Positions 893 through 64,000 of a stretch of 64,000 nucleotides of DNA are shown piece by piece. Position numbers and translations under genes: made by a program. This DNA is from Oerskovia turbata (lineage in GTDB: Bacteria > Actinomycetota > Actinomycetes > Actinomycetales > Cellulomonadaceae), in contig NZ_JOFV01000014.1 of NCBI RefSeq assembly GCF_000718325.1, forward strand, positions 28,001 through 92,000, read 5' to 3'. Under the pieces are notes generated by a model. That model did no database searches and was not told the origin of the DNA. It saw only the letters and a program-made list of their open reading frames with translations. Numbering within the stretch: the first letter of the stretch is position 1; the number at the start of each line of letters is the position of its first letter.

Positions 893-2056
893 TCAGACGG
901 GCAGGGTGAGCTGCGCGCGGATCTCCCGCACGACCTCCTTCTGGACCTCCACGGGGGGAGCCCCGTCGGGATGCAGTCCCAGAAGCGTCGCGAGCCGGAG
1001 CTGGGCCTCCTGCAGGTCGGCCAGCCGTCGGCTCTCCGCGCGCCCGCCCGCGCGCCGGGCCGCCTTGCGCGCTGCACGGCGTCCGTGGACGGTCCGCAGG
1101 GCCTCCCTCTCGCCAGGGGTCACGACGTCGTCGGGCTGGTCGGCGAGCGCCGCCTCGAACCAGCGGTGGTCGACGTGCCGCGCGTACCGGACCACGAGCA
1201 CGAACGCGAGGATCAGGACGACGTACTTGAGGACGACCGACGCGAACGCGCCGGCCTCCGACGACGGGAAGAAGACCTCGGGGGCGTTCCACGCGAAGTG
1301 CAGCACCCAGGCGAGCGCGTAGGCCACGACGGCCACGGTGACGCGCCGCACCGTGGAGACGTGGAACGCCACGAGGGCGTAGGCGATGCCGAAGCCCGCG
1401 ATCGCGGTGAACATCGCGTGCCCGCCCAGGCCGACGAGCACGCGGCTCAGGCCGACCTGGAGAGCCCCCACGGCGTCGGCGTTCGGGTCCGTGATCGCGC
1501 CCTGCACGATGTAGCTGATGTTCTCGCTGACCTCGAACCCCAGGCCGACCATCGCCCCGTAGACCAGGCCGTTGAGCGGGCGGGTCACGTGCGCGCGGCC
1601 CGCGTACAGGACCAGGACCACGCCGAGGAGCTTGATGAGCTCCTCGTCGGTCGGCCCGACGACGGCGGCGGCCCAGGAGGCGAGGCCCACCCGCTCGAAC
1701 ACGGAGATGAGGTGGTCGTTCGCGACCACGACGAGCGTCGGCGCGACGACGAAGCCCCACGCGTAGGCCGCGACGAGCATGCCGCCCGGCTCGTCCTCGA
1801 ACAGGTCGAGCCGCCGGATGATCGCCGTGAGGAGCAGCGTGACGACGGCCGCGAGCAGGATCCCGATCCCCAGGCCCTCGGGCGTGAGGAACACGTCCTG
1901 GACGGCGACCCGGAGCATCCCGACGCCGGCGACGACGAGGCACACCCCGTACAGCCACGTCGCCCACTGGTAGGGGGGGAAGAGGCCGCGCCGCCGCCGC
2001 CCGGGGGCCCTCGTGGGGAGGACCACGGGGACGTTGCGCGGGCCCTGCTCGGTCAT
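893..2056 (-). CDS. PrsW-family intramembrane metalloprotease
   Basis: A polytopic membrane protein of 387 residues of the PrsW family, whose Bacillus founder cleaves an anti-sigma factor inside the membrane. The three family signatures are visible: EExxK in DEELIKLL (residues 138-144), ExxEN in FEVSEN (about 174-179) and the conserved His of GGHAMF (213), spread over about eight hydrophobic segments. The C-terminal 80 residues are charged and probably cytoplasmic. The ATG at 2056 is chosen because it overlaps the stop of the upstream gene as ATGA; the longer open frame upstream is a shadow of that gene. The coupling suggests that the two proteins are made together. The substrate is unknown; no anti-sigma factor is next to it. 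Confidence 0.85.
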   Translation of the reverse strand: MTEQGPRNVPVVLPTRAPGRRRRGLFPPYQWATWLYGVCLVVAGVGMLRVAVQDVFLTPEGLGIGILLAAVVTLLLTAIIRRLDLFEDEPGGMLVAAYAWGFVVAPTLVVVANDHLISVFERVGLASWAAAVVGPTDEELIKLLGVVLVLYAGRAHVTRPLNGLVYGAMVGLGFEVSENISYIVQGAITDPNADAVGALQVGLSRVLVGLGGHAMFTAIAGFGIAYALVAFHVSTVRRVTVAVVAYALAWVLHFAWNAPEVFFPSSEAGAFASVVLKYVVLILAFVLVVRYARHVDHRWFEAALADQPDDVVTPGEREALRTVHGRRAARKAARRAGGRAESRRLADLQEAQLRLATLLGLHPDGAPPVEVQKEVVREIRAQLTLPV

Positions 2057-2679
2057 GAGATCGTCACCGCCTCCACCAGGTCCGCCACGGCCCCGGCCTG
2101 CGCCTGGAGGTCCGACGCCGTCCCGTACGCCAGGATCGACACCCCGCCCTGGGCGTGCTGCGCCGTGACCTTGACCGAGAGCGTGGCAGCCTCGGGGCCG
2201 CCCGACCGGAAGACGCCCGAGACCTCGGCCGGGTCGCCCTCGGACACGATCTGCGCGTCGTACAGGGTCGTGCCTGTCGCCAGCTCGGCGAGCCGGGCCC
2301 GCCGCGTGAAGAACACGTTCGGGTTCTCGACGCCGGAGACGACCTCGATCTGGACCTCGACGCCCCGGCGGTCGACCGTGAGGCTGCCGCCCTCGAACGT
2401 CGACTCGCTCGCGTCGCCGGACGCGCTGATGTCGGCCGTGGTGGACCATCCCGCGGGGAACCGGATCGTCGCGGTCGAGACGCCGTCGGACACCGTGACG
2501 ACCCTGCCCGCGGGGATCTCCGTCTCGGTGGGCGGGGTGCCTTCGTCGACCGCGGTCGGGACGAGCCACAGGGCGATCATCGCGAGCAGCACGACGGCCG
2601 TCGCGACGGACCCCACGCGGTCCATGCCGAAGCGCCCGCGGCGCTCGGGCCGCAGCAGCGGGGGAGGTTCGGGGCGCAT
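2053..2679 (-). CDS. membrane-anchored protein of unknown function, coupled to prsW
   Basis: A 208-residue protein with one transmembrane segment near the N-terminus (about residues 20-43) and an extracytoplasmic domain of about 160 residues without cysteines. I do not recognise the domain; it looks like a small beta-rich, lipoprotein-sized module. The start at 2679 is preceded by AAGGAG at a good distance; a longer reading to 2790 lacks such a site and would enter the promoter region. Its stop overlaps the start of the PrsW-type protease, so it may be a partner or a substrate of that enzyme, but this is inference from position only. Confidence 0.7.
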   Translation of the reverse strand: MRPEPPPLLRPERRGRFGMDRVGSVATAVVLLAMIALWLVPTAVDEGTPPTETEIPAGRVVTVSDGVSTATIRFPAGWSTTADISASGDASESTFEGGSLTVDRRGVEVQIEVVSGVENPNVFFTRRARLAELATGTTLYDAQIVSEGDPAEVSGVFRSGGPEAATLSVKVTAQHAQGGVSILAYGTASDLQAQAGAVADLVEAVTIS

Positions 2680-2833
2680 CTGCTCTCCTTCGGCTCGTCC
2701 GGGTCGGACGTCACCTGATGCAAGCATCGGGACGTCAGGTCCGCGACCGGGGCGCCCGCGGACGCCGCGGGGAGGTGACGTGGACGACACGTGCTGATCC
2801 GCCCCTCACGTGGTGGGTGTGGGCGGCGATGCC

Positions 2834-2845
2834 TAGGGTCGAGGC
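2834..2845 (+). promoter_or_regulatory. leaderless promoter box for the YbaK-like gene
   Basis: TAGGGT followed by six bases and then the ATG at 2846. There is no Shine-Dalgarno sequence, so transcription is expected to begin at or next to the start codon. The same TANNNT-N6/7-ATG layout recurs at several other genes in the window. Confidence 0.6.
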
Positions 2846-3325
2846 ATGAGCGAAGAGCGGGCACGCGCCGCACTGGAAGCGTCCGGGATCGACGTCACGA
2901 TCACCCGTCACGGCCCGGTGAACTCTCTCGAGGAGGCGGCGGCGGCGCGGGGGATCGACCCGGCGAACATCGTCAAGACGCTCGTGGTGCGCCGCGGGGA
3001 CGACGACTACCTGTTCGTCCTCGTCCCGGGCGACCGGACCATCTCGTGGCCCAAGCTGCGGACCTTCCTGGGCGTCTCGCGCCTGTCCATGCCGGACAAG
3101 GAGGTCGCCCGCGAGGTCACGGGGTACGAGCGAGGGACGATCACCCCGTTCGGCGCGACGACGGCCTGGCCCGTCGTCGCCGACTCCCGCGTCGTCGACC
3201 GGGAGGGGACGTCCCCGCTCGTGTCGATCGGCGGGGGTGCTTTCGGCGTCGCGGCGAGCGTCGACGGCGCGAGCCTCGCGGCGACGTTGGGCGCGCAGGT
3301 CGCGGACGTGACCGAGCCGGTCTAA
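2846..3325 (+). CDS. YbaK/EbsC-family aminoacyl-tRNA deacylase
   Basis: A 159-residue cytoplasmic protein of the YbaK/ProX fold, which hydrolyses mischarged aminoacyl-tRNA (Cys-tRNAPro or Ala-tRNAPro type editing). Family features are the IVKTLVVR strand with the conserved Lys, the VLVPGDRTIS segment, and the glycine-rich TPFG and SIGGGAFG loops. Length is normal for a free-standing editing domain. The substrate cannot be read from the sequence. It has its own leaderless promoter and is divergent from the prsW pair. Confidence 0.88.
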   Translation: MSEERARAALEASGIDVTITRHGPVNSLEEAAAARGIDPANIVKTLVVRRGDDDYLFVLVPGDRTISWPKLRTFLGVSRLSMPDKEVAREVTGYERGTITPFGATTAWPVVADSRVVDREGTSPLVSIGGGAFGVAASVDGASLAATLGAQVADVTEPV

Positions 3326-3444
3326 CCTCTCAGAGTTTGACCTTCACGGATCCCGACCGCGGGAACACCGTTCATTGCCCGATCGTTGACCAGGAGGACG
3401 GTCCGCGAGGCCACCCTCACCGACTGACGGAGCACGAGAAGAGC

Positions 3445-3789
3445 ATGACCATCCCCAGTACGTACGACTCAGGCATCAGCTACGAGGCGACCCCCGAGGG
3501 GTCGCTCATCTCCCTGTGGGGAGAGATCGACGCAGCGCTGCGGGACCGCGCGAGCGACGCCATGGCGCAGGTGCTCACGCACCCGGGACCGGTGACGATC
3601 GACGTCGGGCGCGTGACGTTCATCGACTCGTCGGGCATCGCCTTCATCCTCCAGGTCTACATGCTGGGTTCCGAGGACGGGCGCCCCGTGGTCCTGCAGG
3701 ACCCGACGACCTCGCTCGAGGACCTGCTCGACATGATCGGCATGGGCGGGACCATCCCCGTCGTGCGGACCGCGACCGCAGGGTCGTAG
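3445..3789 (+). CDS. STAS-domain anti-sigma factor antagonist
   Basis: A 114-residue single STAS domain like SpoIIAA/RsbV, proteins that release a sigma factor by binding its anti-sigma kinase. The phospho-acceptor region reads FIDSSGIAF, with D61, S62, S63 and G64; the serine is the usual site of kinase control. The strand 'LISLWGEID' before the first helix is also typical. No anti-sigma kinase or sigma factor gene lies beside it, so the partner is encoded elsewhere. The upstream 119 bp contain GTTTGA and GGGAAC words, but their 20-bp spacing does not fit a SigB promoter. Confidence 0.85.
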   Translation: MTIPSTYDSGISYEATPEGSLISLWGEIDAALRDRASDAMAQVLTHPGPVTIDVGRVTFIDSSGIAFILQVYMLGSEDGRPVVLQDPTTSLEDLLDMIGMGGTIPVVRTATAGS

Positions 3790-3877
3790 CCCGCAGGGCC
3801 CTCACGGCCTGCACGGGGTGACGACGAGGTCGCCCCCGGGCCTGGGGCTCCGTCGCAGGGCTGTGGGTGGCGCCCGC

Positions 3878-3890
3878 TACCGTTCGGGTC
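3878..3890 (+). promoter_or_regulatory. leaderless promoter box for sbcD
   Basis: TACCGT, seven bases, then ATG at 3891, with no ribosome binding site. This box supports the start at 3891 rather than the in-frame GTG at 3867. Confidence 0.55.
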
Positions 3891-5174
3891 ATGCGCATCC
3901 TGCACACCTCGGACTGGCACCTCGGTCGCACGCTGCACGGCGTCGACCTGCTGGACCACCAGGCTGCGTACCTGGACCACCTCGTGGACGTCGTCCGCTC
4001 GGAGGGGGTCGGGGCGGTCCTGGTCGCGGGCGACGTGTACGACCGCGCCATCCCGCCCGTGGACGCCGTGAACCTCCTCTCGGACACGGTCGCACGGCTC
4101 GCCGAGCACGCGGACGTCGTGCTCACGCCGGGCAACCACGACTCGGCGATCCGGCTGGGGTTCGGGGCGTCGCTCATGCGTGCGGGCGTCCACTTCCGGA
4201 CGCGCGTGCCCGACGTCGGCACGCCCGTCGTCCTGGACCCCGCCTCGCGCGGTGGCTCGGGCGGGCGTGTCGCGGTGTACGCGATGCCCTACCTCGACCC
4301 GGACGCCGTGCGGTGGGAGCTCGCGGACGGGTGCGGCTGTGGTGGAGACGGCGAGGTGCCGGGCGAGCCCGGGCGAGAGCACGGGCGTGCACCCTTGCCG
4401 CGCTCGCACGAGGCTGTGACCGCGGCGGCCATGCGACGGGTCAGGACGGACGTCGCGCGCCGCCGTGAGGGTGGCGGCGCCCCGCTGCGGAACGTGGTCG
4501 TGGCGCACGCGTTCGTCGTCGGTGGGCAGGCTTCGGAGTCCGAGCGGGACATCCGGGTGGGCGGTGTCGACTCGGTCCCTGCCGGGGTGTTCGGGGGAGC
4601 GGGCGTGGACTACGTGGCACTGGGTCACCTGCATGGCCCGCAGACCGTCACGTTGCCCGGTGTTTCACGTGAAACCACAGGTCACGATCGCGACGGGACG
4701 ACCACGGCCCGCTACTCCGGGTCGCCGCTCGCGTACTCGTTCTCGGAGATGCACCAGAAGAAGTCGACCGTCCTGCTGGACCTCGACGCGACCGGGGACG
4801 CCCGGACGGAGCTGCTCCCGGCGCCGGTCCCGCGCCGTCTCGCCGAGGTCACCGGGACGCTCGACGACCTCCTCGGGGCTTCCGGTGACCCGCACACCGA
4901 CGACTGGCTGCGCGTGTTCGTCACTGATCCCGCCCGGCCCACCGAGATGTACGCGCGCGTCCGCGCACGGTTCCCGCACGCGCTCCAGGTCCAGCACCGC
5001 CCACCGGTGACGGCCGAGCGCGAGGTGATCTCCGTCGTCGGGCAGGGGCGCGACCCGCTCGAGGTGACCCACGAGTTCGTCCAGCACGTCACGGGGACGG
5101 GCCCCGACCAGGCCGAGAGGGCCGCGCTGCGCACCGCGCTCGAACGTGCCCTCGCGAGCGAGCGGAGCGCCTGA
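3891..5174 (+). CDS. sbcD: SbcD, nuclease subunit of the SbcCD DNA-end processing complex
   Basis: A 427-residue Mre11-type calcineurin-like phosphoesterase that cuts hairpins and blocked DNA ends together with SbcC. Metal-binding motifs are in order: SDWHLGR (D8, H10), AGDVYDR (D48), PGNHD (N82, H83, D84), VVAHAF (about 205) and GHLHG (about 245). The C-terminal capping part is present. Compared with typical SbcD there is an insert of about 40 variable residues around 150-190, rich in Gly and Arg. The stop overlaps the sbcC start by one base (TGATG), showing tight coupling. A parS-like 16-mer falls inside the coding sequence. Confidence 0.95.
   Translation: MRILHTSDWHLGRTLHGVDLLDHQAAYLDHLVDVVRSEGVGAVLVAGDVYDRAIPPVDAVNLLSDTVARLAEHADVVLTPGNHDSAIRLGFGASLMRAGVHFRTRVPDVGTPVVLDPASRGGSGGRVAVYAMPYLDPDAVRWELADGCGCGGDGEVPGEPGREHGRAPLPRSHEAVTAAAMRRVRTDVARRREGGGAPLRNVVVAHAFVVGGQASESERDIRVGGVDSVPAGVFGGAGVDYVALGHLHGPQTVTLPGVSRETTGHDRDGTTTARYSGSPLAYSFSEMHQKKSTVLLDLDATGDARTELLPAPVPRRLAEVTGTLDDLLGASGDPHTDDWLRVFVTDPARPTEMYARVRARFPHALQVQHRPPVTAEREVISVVGQGRDPLEVTHEFVQHVTGTGPDQAERAALRTALERALASERSA
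4661..4676 (+). other. parS-like ParB binding site inside sbcD
   Basis: The palindrome TGTTTCACGTGAAACC differs from the canonical chromosomal parS sequence (TGTTTCACGTGAAACA) only in the last base. It is read in frame as V-S-R-E-T within SbcD. Sites this close to consensus are rare by chance. In most bacteria they cluster around the replication origin, so the window may be in the origin-proximal part of the chromosome (inference). Confidence 0.65.
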
Positions 5175-27950: not shown

Positions 27951-28802
27951 ATGGTCTCTCCCACGCAGGTTCCCGACGTCGTGCTCAACAACGGCGTCAC
28001 CGTCCCGCAGGTCGGGCTCGGCGTCTTCAAGGTGCCCGACGACGCGACCCAGCAGAACGTCGAGCAGGCGCTCGAGGCCGGCTACCGGCACATCGACACC
28101 GCGGCCGGCTACTACAACGAGGCCGGAGTGGGAGCCGCGCTGCGCGCGAGCGGCCTGCGCCGCGACGAGATCTTCGTGACGACCAAGCTCCGCAACGGCG
28201 ACCAGGGGTACGAGTCGGCGCTGCAGGCGTTCGAGGACTCGCGCGAGGAGCTCGACGTCGAGTTCGTCGACCTGTACCTCGTCCACTGGCCCGTCCCCAG
28301 CAAGGACCTCTACGTCGAGACCTGGCGGGCGTTCGAGAAGCTCTACGCCGACGGCGCGGCCCGCGCGATCGGCGTCTCCAACTTCCTGCCCGAGCACCTC
28401 GCGCGCCTGCTCGCCGAGACCGACGTGGTGCCGGCCGTCAACCAGATCGAGGTCCACCCGACCTACCAGCAGCGCGCGACCCAGGCCGCGACCCGGGCCG
28501 CCGGGATCGCGGTCGAGGCGTACTCGCCGCTCGGCCGCGGAGCGGACCTCGGCCACCCTGCGGTCGCCGCGGTCGCCGACGCCCACGGCGTCACGCCCGC
28601 CCAGACGATCCTTCGCTGGCACGTCCAGAGCGACCGGATCGTGATCCCCAAGTCCGTGGACCCCGAACGCCTCGCGAGCAACATCGACCTGTTCGGCTTC
28701 GCGCTCTCGCCCGACGAGGTCGCGGCGATCGACGCGCTCGACTCCGACGCGCGGCTCGGCTCCGACCCCGCGACGGCCGCGTTCTCCCAGTACCCGGCCT
28801 GA
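27951..28802 (+). CDS. aldo/keto reductase
   Basis: A 283-residue NADPH-dependent (beta/alpha)8 oxidoreductase of the 2,5-diketo-gluconate reductase type. The catalytic tetrad is visible as Asp and Tyr in HIDTAAGYYNE, Lys in TTKLRN and His in LVHWP. The cofactor-binding segment VIPKSVDPERLASN is intact. Native substrate unknown. The ATG at 27951 follows GAAAGG, and a TAGAAA box six bases before it suggests a leaderless or near-leaderless start; a GTG three bases earlier is possible. The stop codon lies inside a tandem 13-bp repeat. Confidence 0.9.
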   Translation: MVSPTQVPDVVLNNGVTVPQVGLGVFKVPDDATQQNVEQALEAGYRHIDTAAGYYNEAGVGAALRASGLRRDEIFVTTKLRNGDQGYESALQAFEDSREELDVEFVDLYLVHWPVPSKDLYVETWRAFEKLYADGAARAIGVSNFLPEHLARLLAETDVVPAVNQIEVHPTYQQRATQAATRAAGIAVEAYSPLGRGADLGHPAVAAVADAHGVTPAQTILRWHVQSDRIVIPKSVDPERLASNIDLFGFALSPDEVAAIDALDSDARLGSDPATAAFSQYPA

Positions 28803-58189: not shown

Positions 58190-59845
58190 GTGACCTTCAC
58201 GAACCCCGTCCTGCCCGGGACGCACCCCGACCCCAGCATCTGCCGGGTCCCCGGGGTCACCCGGGCGGACGGGACCGTCGCACCCGACGACTACTACCTC
58301 GTGACCTCGACGTTCGAGTACTTCCCGGGCCTGCCGGTCTTCCACAGCCGCGACCTGGTCACGTGGACGCAGGTGGGCCACGCGATCCACCGCACCGACC
58401 AGGTGGACCTGTCGACCGTGCCGTCGTCGGGCGGGCTGTACGCCGCGACGATCCGGCACCACGCCGGGACGTTCTCCGTCGTCACGACGCTCGTCCACAC
58501 CCAGGGCCAGGGAGGGCACCTCCTCGTGACCGCGACCGACCCCGCCGGACCCTGGTCCGACCCGGTGTGGCTCGAGGGCGACGGGATCGACCCGTCGCTG
58601 TTCTTCGACGACTCGACCGGGCGCGTGTGGCTCACCGCGACCCGCCTCGCCGACCCGGGGGAGTGGGACGGCCAGACCGAGGTGTGGCTGCGCGAGCTCG
58701 ACCTCGCCGCGGGCGCGCTCGTCGGCCCCGAGCACGTCCTGTGGCGCGGCGCGCTGCGCGGCGCGGTCTGGGCCGAGGGCCCGCACCTGTACCGGGTCGG
58801 CGACCACTACTACCTGCTCGCCTCCGAGGGCGGCACCGAGCACCACCACGCGGTCTCGGTCGCACGCGCCGACACCGTCACCGGCCCGTACACGGGCAAC
58901 CCCGCGAACCCGATCCTCACGCACCGCCACCTCGGCAAGGACTTCCCCGTCGTCGGCGTCGGGCACGGGGACCTCGTGGAGACCGCTGCCGGCGAGTGGT
59001 GGACGGTCCTGCTCGGCAGCCGCCCCTACGGCGGCTACTTCCCCAACCTGGGGCGCGAGACGTTCCTCGCGCCCGTCGTCTGGGAGGACGGGTGGCCCGT
59101 GGTCGCCCCGGCCGTGGGCCACGTCGCGGGGGACTTTCCCCTGCCCGACGTCGGAGCGCGGCGTCCGGGGAGCGGCTCACCGGCTGAGGCGGGCCAGCCT
59201 GCCGGGGTGGGCTCCGTCGTCGTGCACGAGACGTTCGACGGTCCTGACCTCGACCTCGCGTGGAACCAGGTGCGGACCGGGGAGCGCTTCTGGTCGCTCA
59301 CGGAGAGGCCCCGGCACCTGCGGCTCCCGCTGCTGCCCGCGACGCTGTCCGACGTCGCGACCCCCGCGTTCCTGGGGCGCCGCCAGCAGCACCGGGACAT
59401 GGACCTCACGGTGCGCGTCGACGTCGACCCGGCCGGGCCCGACGAGTGGGCCGGGCTCGCGGTGCGCCAGTCCGAGGAGGCGTGGATCGCGGCGGTCGTG
59501 ACGCGGGCGGTGCCTGCTGCTCCTGGTGGGCTCGGCAGGCGCGAGGTGCTCGTGGTCGAGCGCTTCGGCGGCGAGGAGGTCGTCGTGGGGCGCGCGGCGC
59601 TCGGGCCGCTGGGGCTGGCCGAGGGGCCTGTGGACGTGGTGCTGCACGCCACCGGTCAGGAGTACGCGCTCGGGGTCCGGACGTTGCGTGGCTTCCACGC
59701 CGTCGCGACCGTGCACGGCGGGCGGCTCAGCTCACCCGAGGCGGGCGGGTTCCTGGGCGTGTGGCTCGGCCCGTACGCGACGGGCCGCGGGACGACGACC
59801 GCGACGGTCGCGGACGTCGAGTGCGTGGAGTACCGAGGGCGCTGA
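58190..59845 (+). CDS. glycoside hydrolase family 43 beta-xylosidase
   Basis: A 551-residue cytoplasmic enzyme. The five-bladed propeller carries the general base in HPDPSIC (D14), the pKa-setting Asp in GIDPSLFFDD (about 133) and the general acid in VWAEGPHLY (E196). The C-terminal beta-sandwich (about 345-550) is the usual second domain of GH43 xylosidases. GTG start one base after the GH3 stop, so translation is coupled. The last codons (CVEYRGR) lie within a 26-bp sequence repeated at 61450-61475, showing that foreign DNA entered at the end of this gene. Confidence 0.9.
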   Translation: MTFTNPVLPGTHPDPSICRVPGVTRADGTVAPDDYYLVTSTFEYFPGLPVFHSRDLVTWTQVGHAIHRTDQVDLSTVPSSGGLYAATIRHHAGTFSVVTTLVHTQGQGGHLLVTATDPAGPWSDPVWLEGDGIDPSLFFDDSTGRVWLTATRLADPGEWDGQTEVWLRELDLAAGALVGPEHVLWRGALRGAVWAEGPHLYRVGDHYYLLASEGGTEHHHAVSVARADTVTGPYTGNPANPILTHRHLGKDFPVVGVGHGDLVETAAGEWWTVLLGSRPYGGYFPNLGRETFLAPVVWEDGWPVVAPAVGHVAGDFPLPDVGARRPGSGSPAEAGQPAGVGSVVVHETFDGPDLDLAWNQVRTGERFWSLTERPRHLRLPLLPATLSDVATPAFLGRRQQHRDMDLTVRVDVDPAGPDEWAGLAVRQSEEAWIAAVVTRAVPAAPGGLGRREVLVVERFGGEEVVVGRAALGPLGLAEGPVDVVLHATGQEYALGVRTLRGFHAVATVHGGRLSSPEAGGFLGVWLGPYATGRGTTTATVADVECVEYRGR

Positions 59846-59846
59846 G
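59821..59846 (+). repeat. direct repeat, left copy (end of GH43 gene)
   Basis: 26 bp that match 61450-61475 with two differences; 21 of the last 22 bases are identical. It encodes the last residues and stop of the GH43 enzyme. Confidence 0.85.
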
Positions 59847-59878
59847 ACTTGCTTCGTGGTGGCGCGAATGTCCTCTGG

Positions 59879-61171
59879 CTACCGGAAGCGCCAGTCCGGT
59901 GCGCTCGAAGCGCCCTGTTCCCATTGCCTGCCGTCTGGCGGGGGGCCGCCTGGTGGCTGCATGCCAGCGTAGAACCAGTGCGCGGACGGATCGGACCGCG
60001 CTCCAATGCCGAGCACCAGTCCGCTTGGTGTGCGCCGCCATGCGTGCCAAGACCTGCCACCTTTGGTGACGGTCATCTGGATCCCGTGATCTGGGGGTAG
60101 GCCCTTCTGGGGGAAGTCCCCGAGCACATGCAGAAGGTCCGCTCGATAACGCCCACGGTTGCGATGATGCCCCATGTGGCACAGGGCGAGCCACTGCAAG
60201 GCTTCGCGAGTCTCACCTAGCTCGCGTTGGTCGAGTTGACGCCCATCCAGATCGACGCCCCTCACGCCGGCAAATCGGCGCAGGCGTTGCGCGGCGAGCG
60301 CAGGCTGGGCACGCCGACGATCTCGCTGCCTGCGGTAGACGCGCACAGCATCCCATGTCTCGCGCCAAGTCCCGGTACGGGCGATGACCTGCAGGTCGTC
60401 GTGACGGTTCGACAGGTCATGAGCGGTTCGCAGATCCGGACCTAGTGCCACAACCGTAGCGACGCGGGTCTTCAGGGGGGCCGGAACCCCGAAGATTGGC
60501 ATACGCAGGCGGCGGAGGAGCGTGTCGTATGACAGGTAGAGAGCCAGAAGCCACACGAATGGCAAGATCCCGAGCGGCAGCCAAATTGACAGCGCGAGCC
60601 CCAGGAGCGTCTGACGCACGTCAAGCGTCTCCAAGTTCGCCGTGAGTTGGCGGACGGTTAGGGTGATCAAGGTGAGGCCGACGAGCACATTGAGCGTGAC
60701 TAGAAGTCGCCTCGCTGACATGTGGCGAGGGTCGCGTTCAGAGAAGGCGATGAGCGCGACGAGAAGGATGAGGCCGAGTTGAAGCATCACCTCAACGAGG
60801 TAGTTGAACGTGCGTAGGTTCATCGCATACTGGATGAATACAGCCATCCCGACCGCTTGTTTGATCGCCGTTGCAAAGTACCGGTCGCGCTTCGCGGCGC
60901 TCAGTGCGGCGAAGATCGTCCCGAAACCTGATACGACGAACCAGACGACCGTGTCCTTGACTAGTCCAGAATTCCAGAGACCGAGGTGCGAGGCGCCTAT
61001 GACGAGTGCGGCCACCCACACGGTAAGCGCAACGAGTGGGATGACGATGGCCCCACTCGAAGCCCCTCGCAGAAGTTGCGGGACGTGCTTGCGAGTACTT
61101 GGGATCGAGAGCACGACGACGGCGAAGATGATTAAAAGGGTGAGAATTGCCCACTCGCGTGAGTTCAGCAC
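59879..61171 (-). CDS. polytopic membrane protein of unknown function with soluble C-terminal domain
   Basis: A 430-residue protein I do not recognise. About seven hydrophobic segments fill residues 6-215. The C-terminal 210 residues are soluble, Arg-rich in the middle (WDAVRVYRRQRDRRRAQP) and end with WHAWRRTPSGLVLGIGARSD and a Pro/Gly-rich tail. No catalytic motif is obvious. GTG start 12 bp after the small upstream gene. Codon usage is less GC-biased than in all flanking operons. Membrane protein plus small partner within a recombinase-less insertion fits a cargo such as defence, immunity or toxin, but nothing in the sequence proves it. Confidence 0.65.
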   Translation of the reverse strand: MLNSREWAILTLLIIFAVVVLSIPSTRKHVPQLLRGASSGAIVIPLVALTVWVAALVIGASHLGLWNSGLVKDTVVWFVVSGFGTIFAALSAAKRDRYFATAIKQAVGMAVFIQYAMNLRTFNYLVEVMLQLGLILLVALIAFSERDPRHMSARRLLVTLNVLVGLTLITLTVRQLTANLETLDVRQTLLGLALSIWLPLGILPFVWLLALYLSYDTLLRRLRMPIFGVPAPLKTRVATVVALGPDLRTAHDLSNRHDDLQVIARTGTWRETWDAVRVYRRQRDRRRAQPALAAQRLRRFAGVRGVDLDGRQLDQRELGETREALQWLALCHMGHHRNRGRYRADLLHVLGDFPQKGLPPDHGIQMTVTKGGRSWHAWRRTPSGLVLGIGARSDPSAHWFYAGMQPPGGPPPDGRQWEQGASSAPDWRFR

Positions 61172-61183
61172 GCCCGACGCCGA

Positions 61184-61372
61184 TCAGGCCGCAGTCGCGG
61201 AGAAAGTGAGCAGTTCGGCACTCAGAGGAGGTGTCCGCGCCAGTGCCTCCACGGCTGCGCCGTCAACGACTGGAATCGCAGAGAGCCCGGCGTGCACGAG
61301 CGCCTCGGCGAGTTCACGCTGAATGCTCGGAGATGCGGGCGGTTCGACGGGCAATCTCCGTGTCTCTGACAT
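61184..61372 (-). CDS. small protein upstream of the membrane protein
   Basis: A 62-residue soluble protein with a short Pro-rich start and one Ala/Leu-rich helical region (RELAEALVHAGLSAIPVVDG). No known domain. The ribosome site is weak, so the start is uncertain. Its position 12 bp before the membrane protein gene, within the same insertion, suggests a two-gene unit. Confidence 0.5.
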   Translation of the reverse strand: MSETRRLPVEPPASPSIQRELAEALVHAGLSAIPVVDGAAVEALARTPPLSAELLTFSATAA

Positions 61373-61449
61373 GAGAGCAGGTAACCATGCCCCACCGACA
61401 GCACGTGTCGTGACAACAGTGTGAGGTTGGAGGGGACAAGACGAAGTAG

Positions 61450-61475
61450 GTGTGTGGAGTACCGAGGGTGCTGAG
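61450..61475 (+). repeat. direct repeat, right copy
   Basis: Second copy of the GH43 gene end: GTGGAGTACCGAGGG is identical to the left copy and the rest differs in two bases. It is followed by the VanZ-like gene on the other strand. Confidence 0.85.
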
Positions 61476-61501: not shown

Positions 61502-62083
61502 TCACCCGCGCTGCGCCGCGTCGACCTCGGCTCCGCGGACCTCGACCTCGTGCCAGCGGAACCGGTCGACGACGGCGCTGACGGACGGGACCTTCACGAG
61601 CGCCGAGAACACCGCGAAGCCGACCGCCCCACCGGTGATGTTGAAGATCAGGTCGTTCACGTCCGCGATGTGCCCCCCACCGAGCAGGTGCGCCGTCACG
61701 AGCTGGGTGGCCTCGATCGTCAGGCTGAGGACCGCTGCTGCTGCCACGGCCCGTCGCCACGAGGCCCGGGGCACGAGCAGCGGCACGAGGACGCCGACCG
61801 GGACGAAGACCAGCACGTTCATGACCGCATCGGCGACCTCGTAGTCCGCGAACGGCACGACGGCGAGATGGCTGGCCCAGGGGGCGCTGCTGACGGGCTT
61901 GTCGAGGAAGACCGGGAAGACGGTGTTCGCGACGATCCCGGCGACGTAGACGCCGAGCGCGAGGGCGACCGCGGCTCGCGGCACGGAGAAGCGCCTGCTG
62001 CGGATCAGCGACCACATCAACCCCGCGAACACCGCCGCGGCCAGAGGGACGACGACCGGGAGGACCGGGACCTGGTGGAACAC
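61502..62083 (-). CDS. VanZ-like membrane protein 1
   Basis: A 193-residue protein with about five hydrophobic segments. The VanZ-family core is visible as NVLVFVPVGVLVPLL and the polar helix SLTIEATQLVTAHLLGGGHIADVNDLIFN (given here as family position, residues about 110-140). The E and the D..DL..N residues are the conserved ones. VanZ itself gives low-level teicoplanin resistance, but most members have no known role. GTG start at 62083 is the best placed; the frame is open further up. Confidence 0.75.
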   Translation of the reverse strand: MFHQVPVLPVVVPLAAAVFAGLMWSLIRSRRFSVPRAAVALALGVYVAGIVANTVFPVFLDKPVSSAPWASHLAVVPFADYEVADAVMNVLVFVPVGVLVPLLVPRASWRRAVAAAAVLSLTIEATQLVTAHLLGGGHIADVNDLIFNITGGAVGFAVFSALVKVPSVSAVVDRFRWHEVEVRGAEVDAAQRG

Positions 62084-62247
62084 GGGTGATCTGCACCTTT
62101 CTCCGAGACGTGTGCTGTGGCTGGTGCCGCGGCTCCACGCCACAGTGCCCGTCGTGCCAGGAGCTCGGCATCCGTCCGTGGTCGGACCCGAGGAGACAGC
62201 GAGTACGACCGTCGCCGTCACCCGGGCGTGCTCGCGCGGCCCCCGGA

Positions 62248-63723: not shown

Positions 63724-63789
63724 GGGTTGTGGAAGGGAGGACCTCCGGGCTTAGTGGAGATGTCGAAGTCTTCACAACCCGGAGGTCCT
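63724..63789. repeat. nested inverted repeats before the transposase fragment
   Basis: GGGTTGTG (63724-63731) pairs with 63773-63780, and AGGACCTCCGGG (63738-63749) pairs with 63778-63789. They lie just upstream of the IS481-type start codon and probably belong to the element's left end. Confidence 0.6.
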
Positions 63790-63790
63790 C

Positions 63791-63925
63791 ATGTCCCACG
63801 CTAATGCCCGCCTGACCGTTCGCGGCAGGAAGCTGATCATCGAACGCCGCCGTGATGGCTGGAAGCAGGCCCACATCGCTGCCGCGATCGACGGGCCTAG
63901 CTGTACTGACTCGTTGCGTTGTTGA
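63791..63925 (+). pseudogene. IS481-family transposase, N-terminal fragment
   Basis: MSHANARLTVRGRKLIIE and DGWKQAHIAAA are the opening of an IS481-type transposase and its first helix-turn-helix. Homology ends near 63894, after about 35 of the expected 300 or more residues, where the end of another IS481 element begins on the opposite strand. The frame then stops at 63925. This copy cannot make a transposase. Confidence 0.8.
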
Positions 63926-63998
63926 CTCGGTCGATGGGTCGTAGGCCGCCGATGCCGAGGTGGGGTCGTTCTAGGTTGTAGTGCTGGAGCCAGGTAGG
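63897..63998 (-). CDS. IS481-family transposase, C-terminal end (continues outside window)
   Basis: The last 33 residues of a second transposase: TWLQHYNLERPHLGIGG and LRPIDRVNNATSQYS. YN..RPH..(L/I)GG..P..R is the standard ending of the DDE domain in IS481/IS3-type enzymes. It runs on the minus strand from beyond the window edge. Its end sits exactly where the first fragment is cut, so this element probably inserted into the other. Confidence 0.85.
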   Translation of the reverse strand, partial: PTWLQHYNLERPHLGIGGLRPIDRVNNATSQYS

Positions 63999-64000
63999 CA

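Follow-up and report, generated by a model that had tools for sequence, protein, structure and literature searches.

A proposed small exchange slot behind a GH43 gene of Oerskovia, holding a decayed two-gene cassette of probable defence origin

Between a gene for a GH43 β-xylosidase and a VanZ-like gene of Oerskovia turbata lies a cassette of about 1.6 kb that encodes a membrane protein and the remnant of a second protein. We analyzed this locus within a window of 64,000 nucleotides (positions 28,001 to 92,000 of contig NZ_JOFV01000014.1) and compared it with the corresponding loci of other Oerskovia species. The explanation that best accounts for the data as a whole, and that we consider on balance probable, is that the interval from GH43 to the VanZ-like gene serves as a small slot for exchange, in which accessory blocks would replace one another between species, and that the cassette in the window is a decayed two-gene cargo, likely derived from a phage defence system.

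The comparison included seven genomes, one per species (G000 to G006; G000 is the genome of the window and G001 is that of Oerskovia merdavium, the other carrier of the cassette in this set). The GH43 gene was found in all seven, and four different contents follow it, namely the gene for the membrane protein in G000 and G001; a toxin-antitoxin-like pair in G002 and G005, in which the antitoxin-like protein matches HTH_31 and the toxin-like protein has no Pfam match; a small DUF1801-like gene in G003 and G004; and GNAT-like and NAD-kinase-like genes in G006 (the last two contents were assigned by eye). The VanZ-like gene follows the cargo in G002, G003, G004 and G005, and was not seen within the 6 kb fetched for G006. 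In G001, the slot is interrupted by contig ends; the VanZ-like gene is located near the end of another contig, which is probably the neighbour of the contig that carries GH43. A preliminary description of the window, made from the nucleotide sequence alone, raised the question whether other cargo occupies this site in relatives, as it does, and expected that the uninterrupted locus would have a single copy of a terminal repeat with the VanZ-like gene directly after GH43. Such an empty site is present in none of the five non-carriers, all of which hold other DNA behind GH43.

In a genus tree of 10,968 columns (supports 98-100), built from rpoBC, gyrB and another type II topoisomerase region, the two carriers fall on opposite sides of the genus, G001 as the sister of G004 and G000 as the sister of G003; G005 and G002 branch beside G000/G003, and G006 branches outside these lineages. 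The DUF1801-like gene that both sisters of the carriers, G003 and G004, have in the slot is missing from the DNA between GH43 and the VanZ-like gene of the window, which indicates that cargo replaces cargo at this locus. None of the three cargo-sharing pairs (G000/G001, G003/G004 and G002/G005) are sisters, and in all three the cargo is younger than GH43; for G002/G005, the sharing could also reflect descent followed by later loss. Synonymous divergence (dS), computed with codons near indels masked, is 0.059 between G000 and G001 for the membrane protein gene, compared with 0.201 for GH43 (p = 8e-7) and 0.136 for the VanZ-like gene (p = 0.016). The respective values for G003 and G004 are 0.038 for the DUF1801-like gene, 0.219 for GH43 (p = 3.5e-5) and 0.148 for the VanZ-like gene (p = 0.006), and those for G002 and G005 are 0 for the antitoxin-like gene, 0.080 (p = 0.003) and 0.042 (p = 0.09). 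Along the alignment of G000 and G001, differences thin out over the 81 bp that precede the stop codon of GH43, in or near which the left edge of the low-divergence tract is located, and climb again at the right copy of the repeat that bounds the cassette. In these 81 bp, the window differs from G001, G002, G003 and G005 at 1-3 positions and from G004 and G006 at 10 positions each. The corresponding profile of G002 and G005 shows few differences through the VanZ-like gene (11/540) and more beyond it.

The insert also stands out by base composition. Its guanine plus cytosine (GC) content is 0.628, compared with 0.749 in GH43, 0.711 in the VanZ-like gene and a mean of 0.720 for the window, and none of the 312 sampled segments of 1,603 bp, taken at a step of 200 bp, is equally low. 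The lower-GC insert of about 1.6 kb of the preliminary description is thereby upheld, and the composition equal to the flanks that it had named as grounds for rejection was not observed.

As an exchange slot, the locus falls into a known class: different accessory genes occupy one place, as in the integrase-poor hotspots treated in Oliveira et al. 2017 (PMC5635113). It shares with them a fixed slot between conserved genes, lineage-specific cargo and the frequent lack of a mobility gene; unlike the hotspots of that account, which are described within species, the slot reported here would operate between species and bears a repeat footprint at one of its cargos. For the hotspots, recombination at flanking core genes has been proposed in the same account. 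In Oerskovia, exchange would most likely proceed through homologous recombination between flanking genes, the unit itself lacking a recombinase, and site-specific insertion is the alternative. With three shared cargos in seven genomes, each of lower dS than the adjacent GH43, the slot could serve as a compact case of cargo exchange.

Several observations weigh against this interpretation. The young tract of the cassette ends at the edges of the cassette itself, which fits site-specific insertion equally well. For G002/G005, the dS of the VanZ-like gene (0.042) is neither significantly lower than that of GH43 (p = 0.18) nor significantly higher than that of the cargo (p = 0.09). The sample comprises seven genomes with one per species, and the slot of G001 is broken by the assembly. 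To these should be added the agreement of the repeat copies at one position, the weak link of the partner to Abi-alpha and the scope of the neighbourhood survey, all of which are described below.

The cassette is bounded by a 26-bp direct repeat, the left copy of which contains the last codons and the stop of GH43; the right copy lies between the cassette and the VanZ-like gene (Table 1). The two copies are identical at 24 of 26 positions, and their score of 20 exceeds the maximum of 12 among the best scores of 40 shuffles of the two flanks of about 280 bp. The end of each genome's own GH43 was then used as a query against the interval behind GH43, along with 200 shuffled queries. A second copy was detected in both carriers (24/26 in G000 and 20/26 in G001, where the target was limited to the terminal 200 bases of the contig with the VanZ-like gene), and no shuffled query performed as well. 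In none of the five non-carriers, for which the query began one base later, was there a second copy above chance: the best matches of 14-16 of 26 were matched by 66 to 196 of the 200 shuffles. Thus, both the repeat with two differences and its link to the cargo, as originally described, hold up, and given that the second copy is found in carriers alone, the repeat appears to be the footprint of the original insertion of the cassette at the 3' end of GH43. It would stem either from an att-like duplication, left by a recombinase since lost or active in trans, or from illegitimate recombination in which the end of the gene was duplicated.

The evolution of the two copies can be reconstructed in two ways. 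In G001, the right copy directly follows a 34-base stretch with two differences from the window, and differs from the left copy at 6 of 26 positions. Comparison of the right copies of G000 and G001 reveals 9 mismatches in 26 positions, with 8 more in the following 29 bases, compared with 56 of 1,500 in the cassette. This pattern could result from an old single insertion that duplicated the gene end, after which the right copies would have drifted and the interior would have been exchanged later. Alternatively, there may have been two separate att-like insertions, a scenario that is slightly favoured by position 16 of the repeat, a single site at which both copies agree inside each genome (A/A in one, G/G in the other).

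The second scenario is part of a broader alternative, under which the cassette is a site-specific element resembling a cis-mobilizable element (CIME): an integrase would have targeted the 3' end of GH43, the repeats would be attL and attR, the integrase would have been lost or supplied in trans, and G000 and G001 would have been entered separately. We regard this as a substantial but distinctly less probable possibility. The repeat indeed includes the gene end, preserves the stop and has a second copy only in carriers; the young tract has sharp edges; the toxin-antitoxin-like cargo of G002 and G005 joins GH43 at the same base, 59846; the copies agree at position 16; and some relatives are encoded near integrases. 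In the CIME description of PMC5704250, such elements likewise lack integration and transfer genes and have repeat copies at both ends, one of them at a gene end. The differences are that in our case no parent integrative and conjugative element (ICE) or integrative and mobilizable element (IME) is seen, the cargo is only 1.6 kb and the att-like ends are putative. Neither of the two open reading frames (ORFs) of the 1.6 kb matches integration or transfer genes, and the sequences behind GH43 that were fetched for the seven genomes contain no recognisable ICE or IME, with an assembly gap at this position in G001.

What speaks against a site-specific element is, first, that no integrase match was obtained for the unit. 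The genome of the window lacks a third copy of the repeat sequence at up to 2 mismatches over 19 bases; its seven PF00589 matches are all outside the cassette, and no recombinase acting on the repeat was found. At the loci of three relatives, the borders show no flanking repeats above chance; the right copy of G001 has diverged from its own left copy as described above; and the toxin-antitoxin-like cargo lacks a second repeat copy, with no empty site among the five non-carriers. The integrase that targets gene ends, or the satellite, envisaged in the preliminary description is a possibility that the two sole copies in the genome and the borders of the relatives' loci do not favour.

Another possibility, which we consider rather improbable, is that foreign DNA was joined to the gene end via short homology, in an illegitimate or replication-linked duplication, and that the slot involves no special mechanism. 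The imperfect repeat, the lack of a recombinase and the rearranged neighbourhood in G002 and G005, where a NAD-kinase-like piece is found at the end of the VanZ-like gene, are compatible with such an origin, but three cargos shared across species with dS below that of GH43 require a recurrent route of exchange.

Both ORFs of the cassette that were originally proposed are recovered on the minus strand, and neither matches a recombinase family, in a scan that covered these two ORFs and left out overlapping alternative ones. The 62-residue ORF can no longer be considered an independent protein: alignment with longer homologs indicates that it is a deletion relic of a partner protein of about 232 residues, so that the insert does not consist of two intact genes. 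About 43 N-terminal and 17 C-terminal residues are joined in frame, and about 163 residues are gone. O. merdavium has the same deletion and has lost the start codon as well. In G099, a 270-residue ORF is located directly upstream of a gene for a membrane protein 67% identical to that of the window. Database searches returned 46 longer partners, and five pairs of partner and membrane proteins match in the size of the longest contig (18255, 7358, 13030, 4130 and 2987), which suggests that the two genes are probably on shared contigs. The original cargo would have been a two-gene operon for the partner and for a membrane effector some 430 residues long; in Oerskovia, an in-frame deletion has gutted the partner, and the operon has decayed. 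The stop of the relic precedes the GTG start of the membrane protein gene by 12 nt, and the relic ORF may persist as a translational leader only.

The gene for the 430-residue membrane protein is apparently intact and open in both G000 and G001. Its ratio of nonsynonymous to synonymous divergence (dN/dS) is 0.50, compared with 0.21 for GH43, which suggests weak constraint. The seven membrane segments previously counted are loosely supported: hydropathy shows six peaks, and a structure model (mean predicted local distance difference test score, pLDDT, 73.8) has eight helices in residues 1-223. As initially reported, the protein belongs to no recognised family, with no match above the Pfam cut-off (one weak match is below the threshold) and none in NCBIfam, PADLOC or PHROGs; PADLOC 2.0 assigned no family to the proteins of the window or to the G099 pair, and fold searches yielded no convincing match. 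Sequence searches identified 24 homologs. Within the family, 9 of the 221 genomes contain matches, some of them partial; a profile search gave matches in 13 of 396 genomes sampled from the order. Judging by these comparisons, the protein is a member of a sparse, unnamed family with two modules, an N-terminal membrane module and a C-terminal soluble one. The membrane module occurs alone in relatives of 283 and 315 residues (G296 and G544), and the membrane form is represented in a haloarchaeal plasmid protein.

Coordinates of the features of the locus are given in Table 1.

Table 1. Features of the locus in window coordinates
Feature	Position	Strand	Basis or property
GH43 β-xylosidase gene, conserved left flank	58190..59845	+	Pfam Glyco_hydro_43 1.4e-79, GH43_C2 4.6e-31
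Last 81 bp of GH43 before the stop	59762..59842	+	
Left repeat copy	59821..59846	+	
Cargo cassette	59847..61449	.	GC 0.628
430-residue membrane protein gene	59879..61171	-	
C-terminal soluble module (about residues 262-430)	59882..60388	-	hhalign to soluble RX4H proteins
N-terminal membrane module (about residues 1-223)	60503..61171	-	hydropathy, structure model
62-residue relic of partner gene	61184..61372	-	tblastn and alignment to intact partner
Right repeat copy	61450..61475	+	24/26 to left copy
VanZ-like gene, right flank	61502..62089	-	Pfam VanZ 1.7e-19

The C-terminal module also terminates soluble proteins, such as a 413-residue protein from a Micrococcus plasmid, for which a database search gave 149 hits. 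The hhalign comparison of the module with 14 of these hits gave 99.9%, with an E-value of 1.2e-34 over 166 columns. A type IV pilin-like fold of the module is a tentative possibility. The soluble proteins contain the motif SRHGxxHG, in which R232 and H237, separated by four residues, are invariant in all 26 aligned sequences, chosen among 120 listed. The RX4-6H motif is the signature of HEPN ribonucleases. By this motif, the soluble cousins, although not the protein of the window, are predicted to be HEPN-like; Pfam searches of 26 soluble members with a limit of E = 1 returned no HEPN-named family. The unnamed module links a putative membrane effector with a HEPN-like family; it occurs in bacteria and also on one haloarchaeal plasmid. 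In the Micrococcus plasmid pJD12, the protein beside the soluble RX4H protein (L070, 2224-3978) has, by eye, a start resembling restriction-type nucleases. One soluble RX4H member (P0191) is labelled as coming from Vibrio cholerae; the other named members are listed as actinobacterial, and the label may be wrong.

Judged from sequence, the cargo is most likely what remains of a membrane-effector defence system that has not been described before. The intact operon would most likely provide abortive-infection-type defence against phages, with the C-terminal module or the partner sensing infection and the membrane part damaging the envelope. This prediction is drawn from the patchy distribution, the module in common with RX4H proteins, and the defence and integrase genes near some relatives. 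The neighbourhoods were surveyed in 15 stretches (L057-L064 and L093-L099) around members of the family or proteins with the C-terminal module; a recombinase, transposase or PADLOC match was found in 6 of the 10 stretches in which chosen neighbours were scanned, a frequency that has no background control and on that count weakens the case. The neighbours include an integrase, a HIRAN/PDC-M03B protein and a Mutator transposase in G067; TIR/ThsB-like and PDC-S06 proteins in G036; PycC and PycTM (both within about 4 kb of the relative) and DUF4365 in G342; integrases in G544 and G266; and an ISL3 transposase in G097. In addition, an integrase match under the Pfam cut-off was obtained in G090, and a DUF6119 protein is encoded nearby in G296.

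It is unlikely, in our estimation, that the cargo is a conventional gene for a membrane or transport protein, accompanied by a regulator. The defence role is itself deduced indirectly, and fold searches give no convincing match, as would suit such a gene, but its patchy distribution, the module common with RX4H proteins and the defence and integrase genes near some distant relatives are at odds with it. If the intact operon, as we propose, protects against phage, it would represent a new defence family, and the Oerskovia copies would show its decay as cargo.

Two known types of defence offer points of comparison. The partner is nearly all helical in the model, possibly with a winged-helix end, and resembles Abi-alpha (DUF4393; PMC6356687) in this respect and in size. 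It differs in being paired with a membrane protein and in remaining below the membership threshold, whereas Abi-alpha was shown in PMC6356687 to act as a single gene; premature lysis of infected cells is characteristic of Abi-alpha. The proteins P0025 and P0027 match no Pfam family, Abi-alpha (PF14337) included, above the curated cut-off; Abi_alpha scores weakly in 3 of 40 relatives (best E-value 0.026), and the profile comparison is weak as well (47%), a weak point of the proposed explanation. Relatives of the partner are found on six viral contigs and four plasmids. With the Pycsar (PycTM) and CBASS effectors, the cargo shares a small operon with a membrane effector, and the G342 relative is close to PycTM and PycC; in contrast to these systems, the operon contains no cyclase, and the membrane proteins scanned have no PycTM or other effector match. 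Tentatively, and with less confidence than in the exchange slot with its decayed cargo, we propose that the C-terminal 'WRRT' module acts as sensor or trigger in a family of anti-phage effectors not yet described, with a swapped killing part, either a multi-pass membrane domain or a HEPN-like RNase, and that the membrane branch in Cellulomonadaceae works with an Abi-alpha-like winged-helix partner and moves between species via recombinase-free slots.

Some additional features of the slots in the relatives and of the window should be mentioned. In G001, the relic and the right repeat are separated by a nested insert, which has GGTGTTCTCACCAG in inverted orientation at its outer ends and is unassembled in its middle. 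A 469-residue ORF for which Pfam gave nothing at E = 0.01 is encoded in this insert (L037, about 1999-3990, and the end of L052), together with a third copy, similar to the end sequence and directly oriented. In G005 (L041), the toxin-like ORF has a large internal deletion; the antitoxin-like genes of G005 and G002 are identical. The GH43 stop of G002 (L038) is altered, so that the reading frame continues into the toxin-antitoxin-like cargo. In both G002 and G005, the end of the VanZ-like gene is replaced by a piece of about 40-50 bp (about 1730-1781 and 1622-1661, respectively) that matches a NAD-kinase-like gene located elsewhere in G005 and in G006. Finally, the window and the contig terminate in DNA that, by eye, resembles an insertion sequence (63780-64000).

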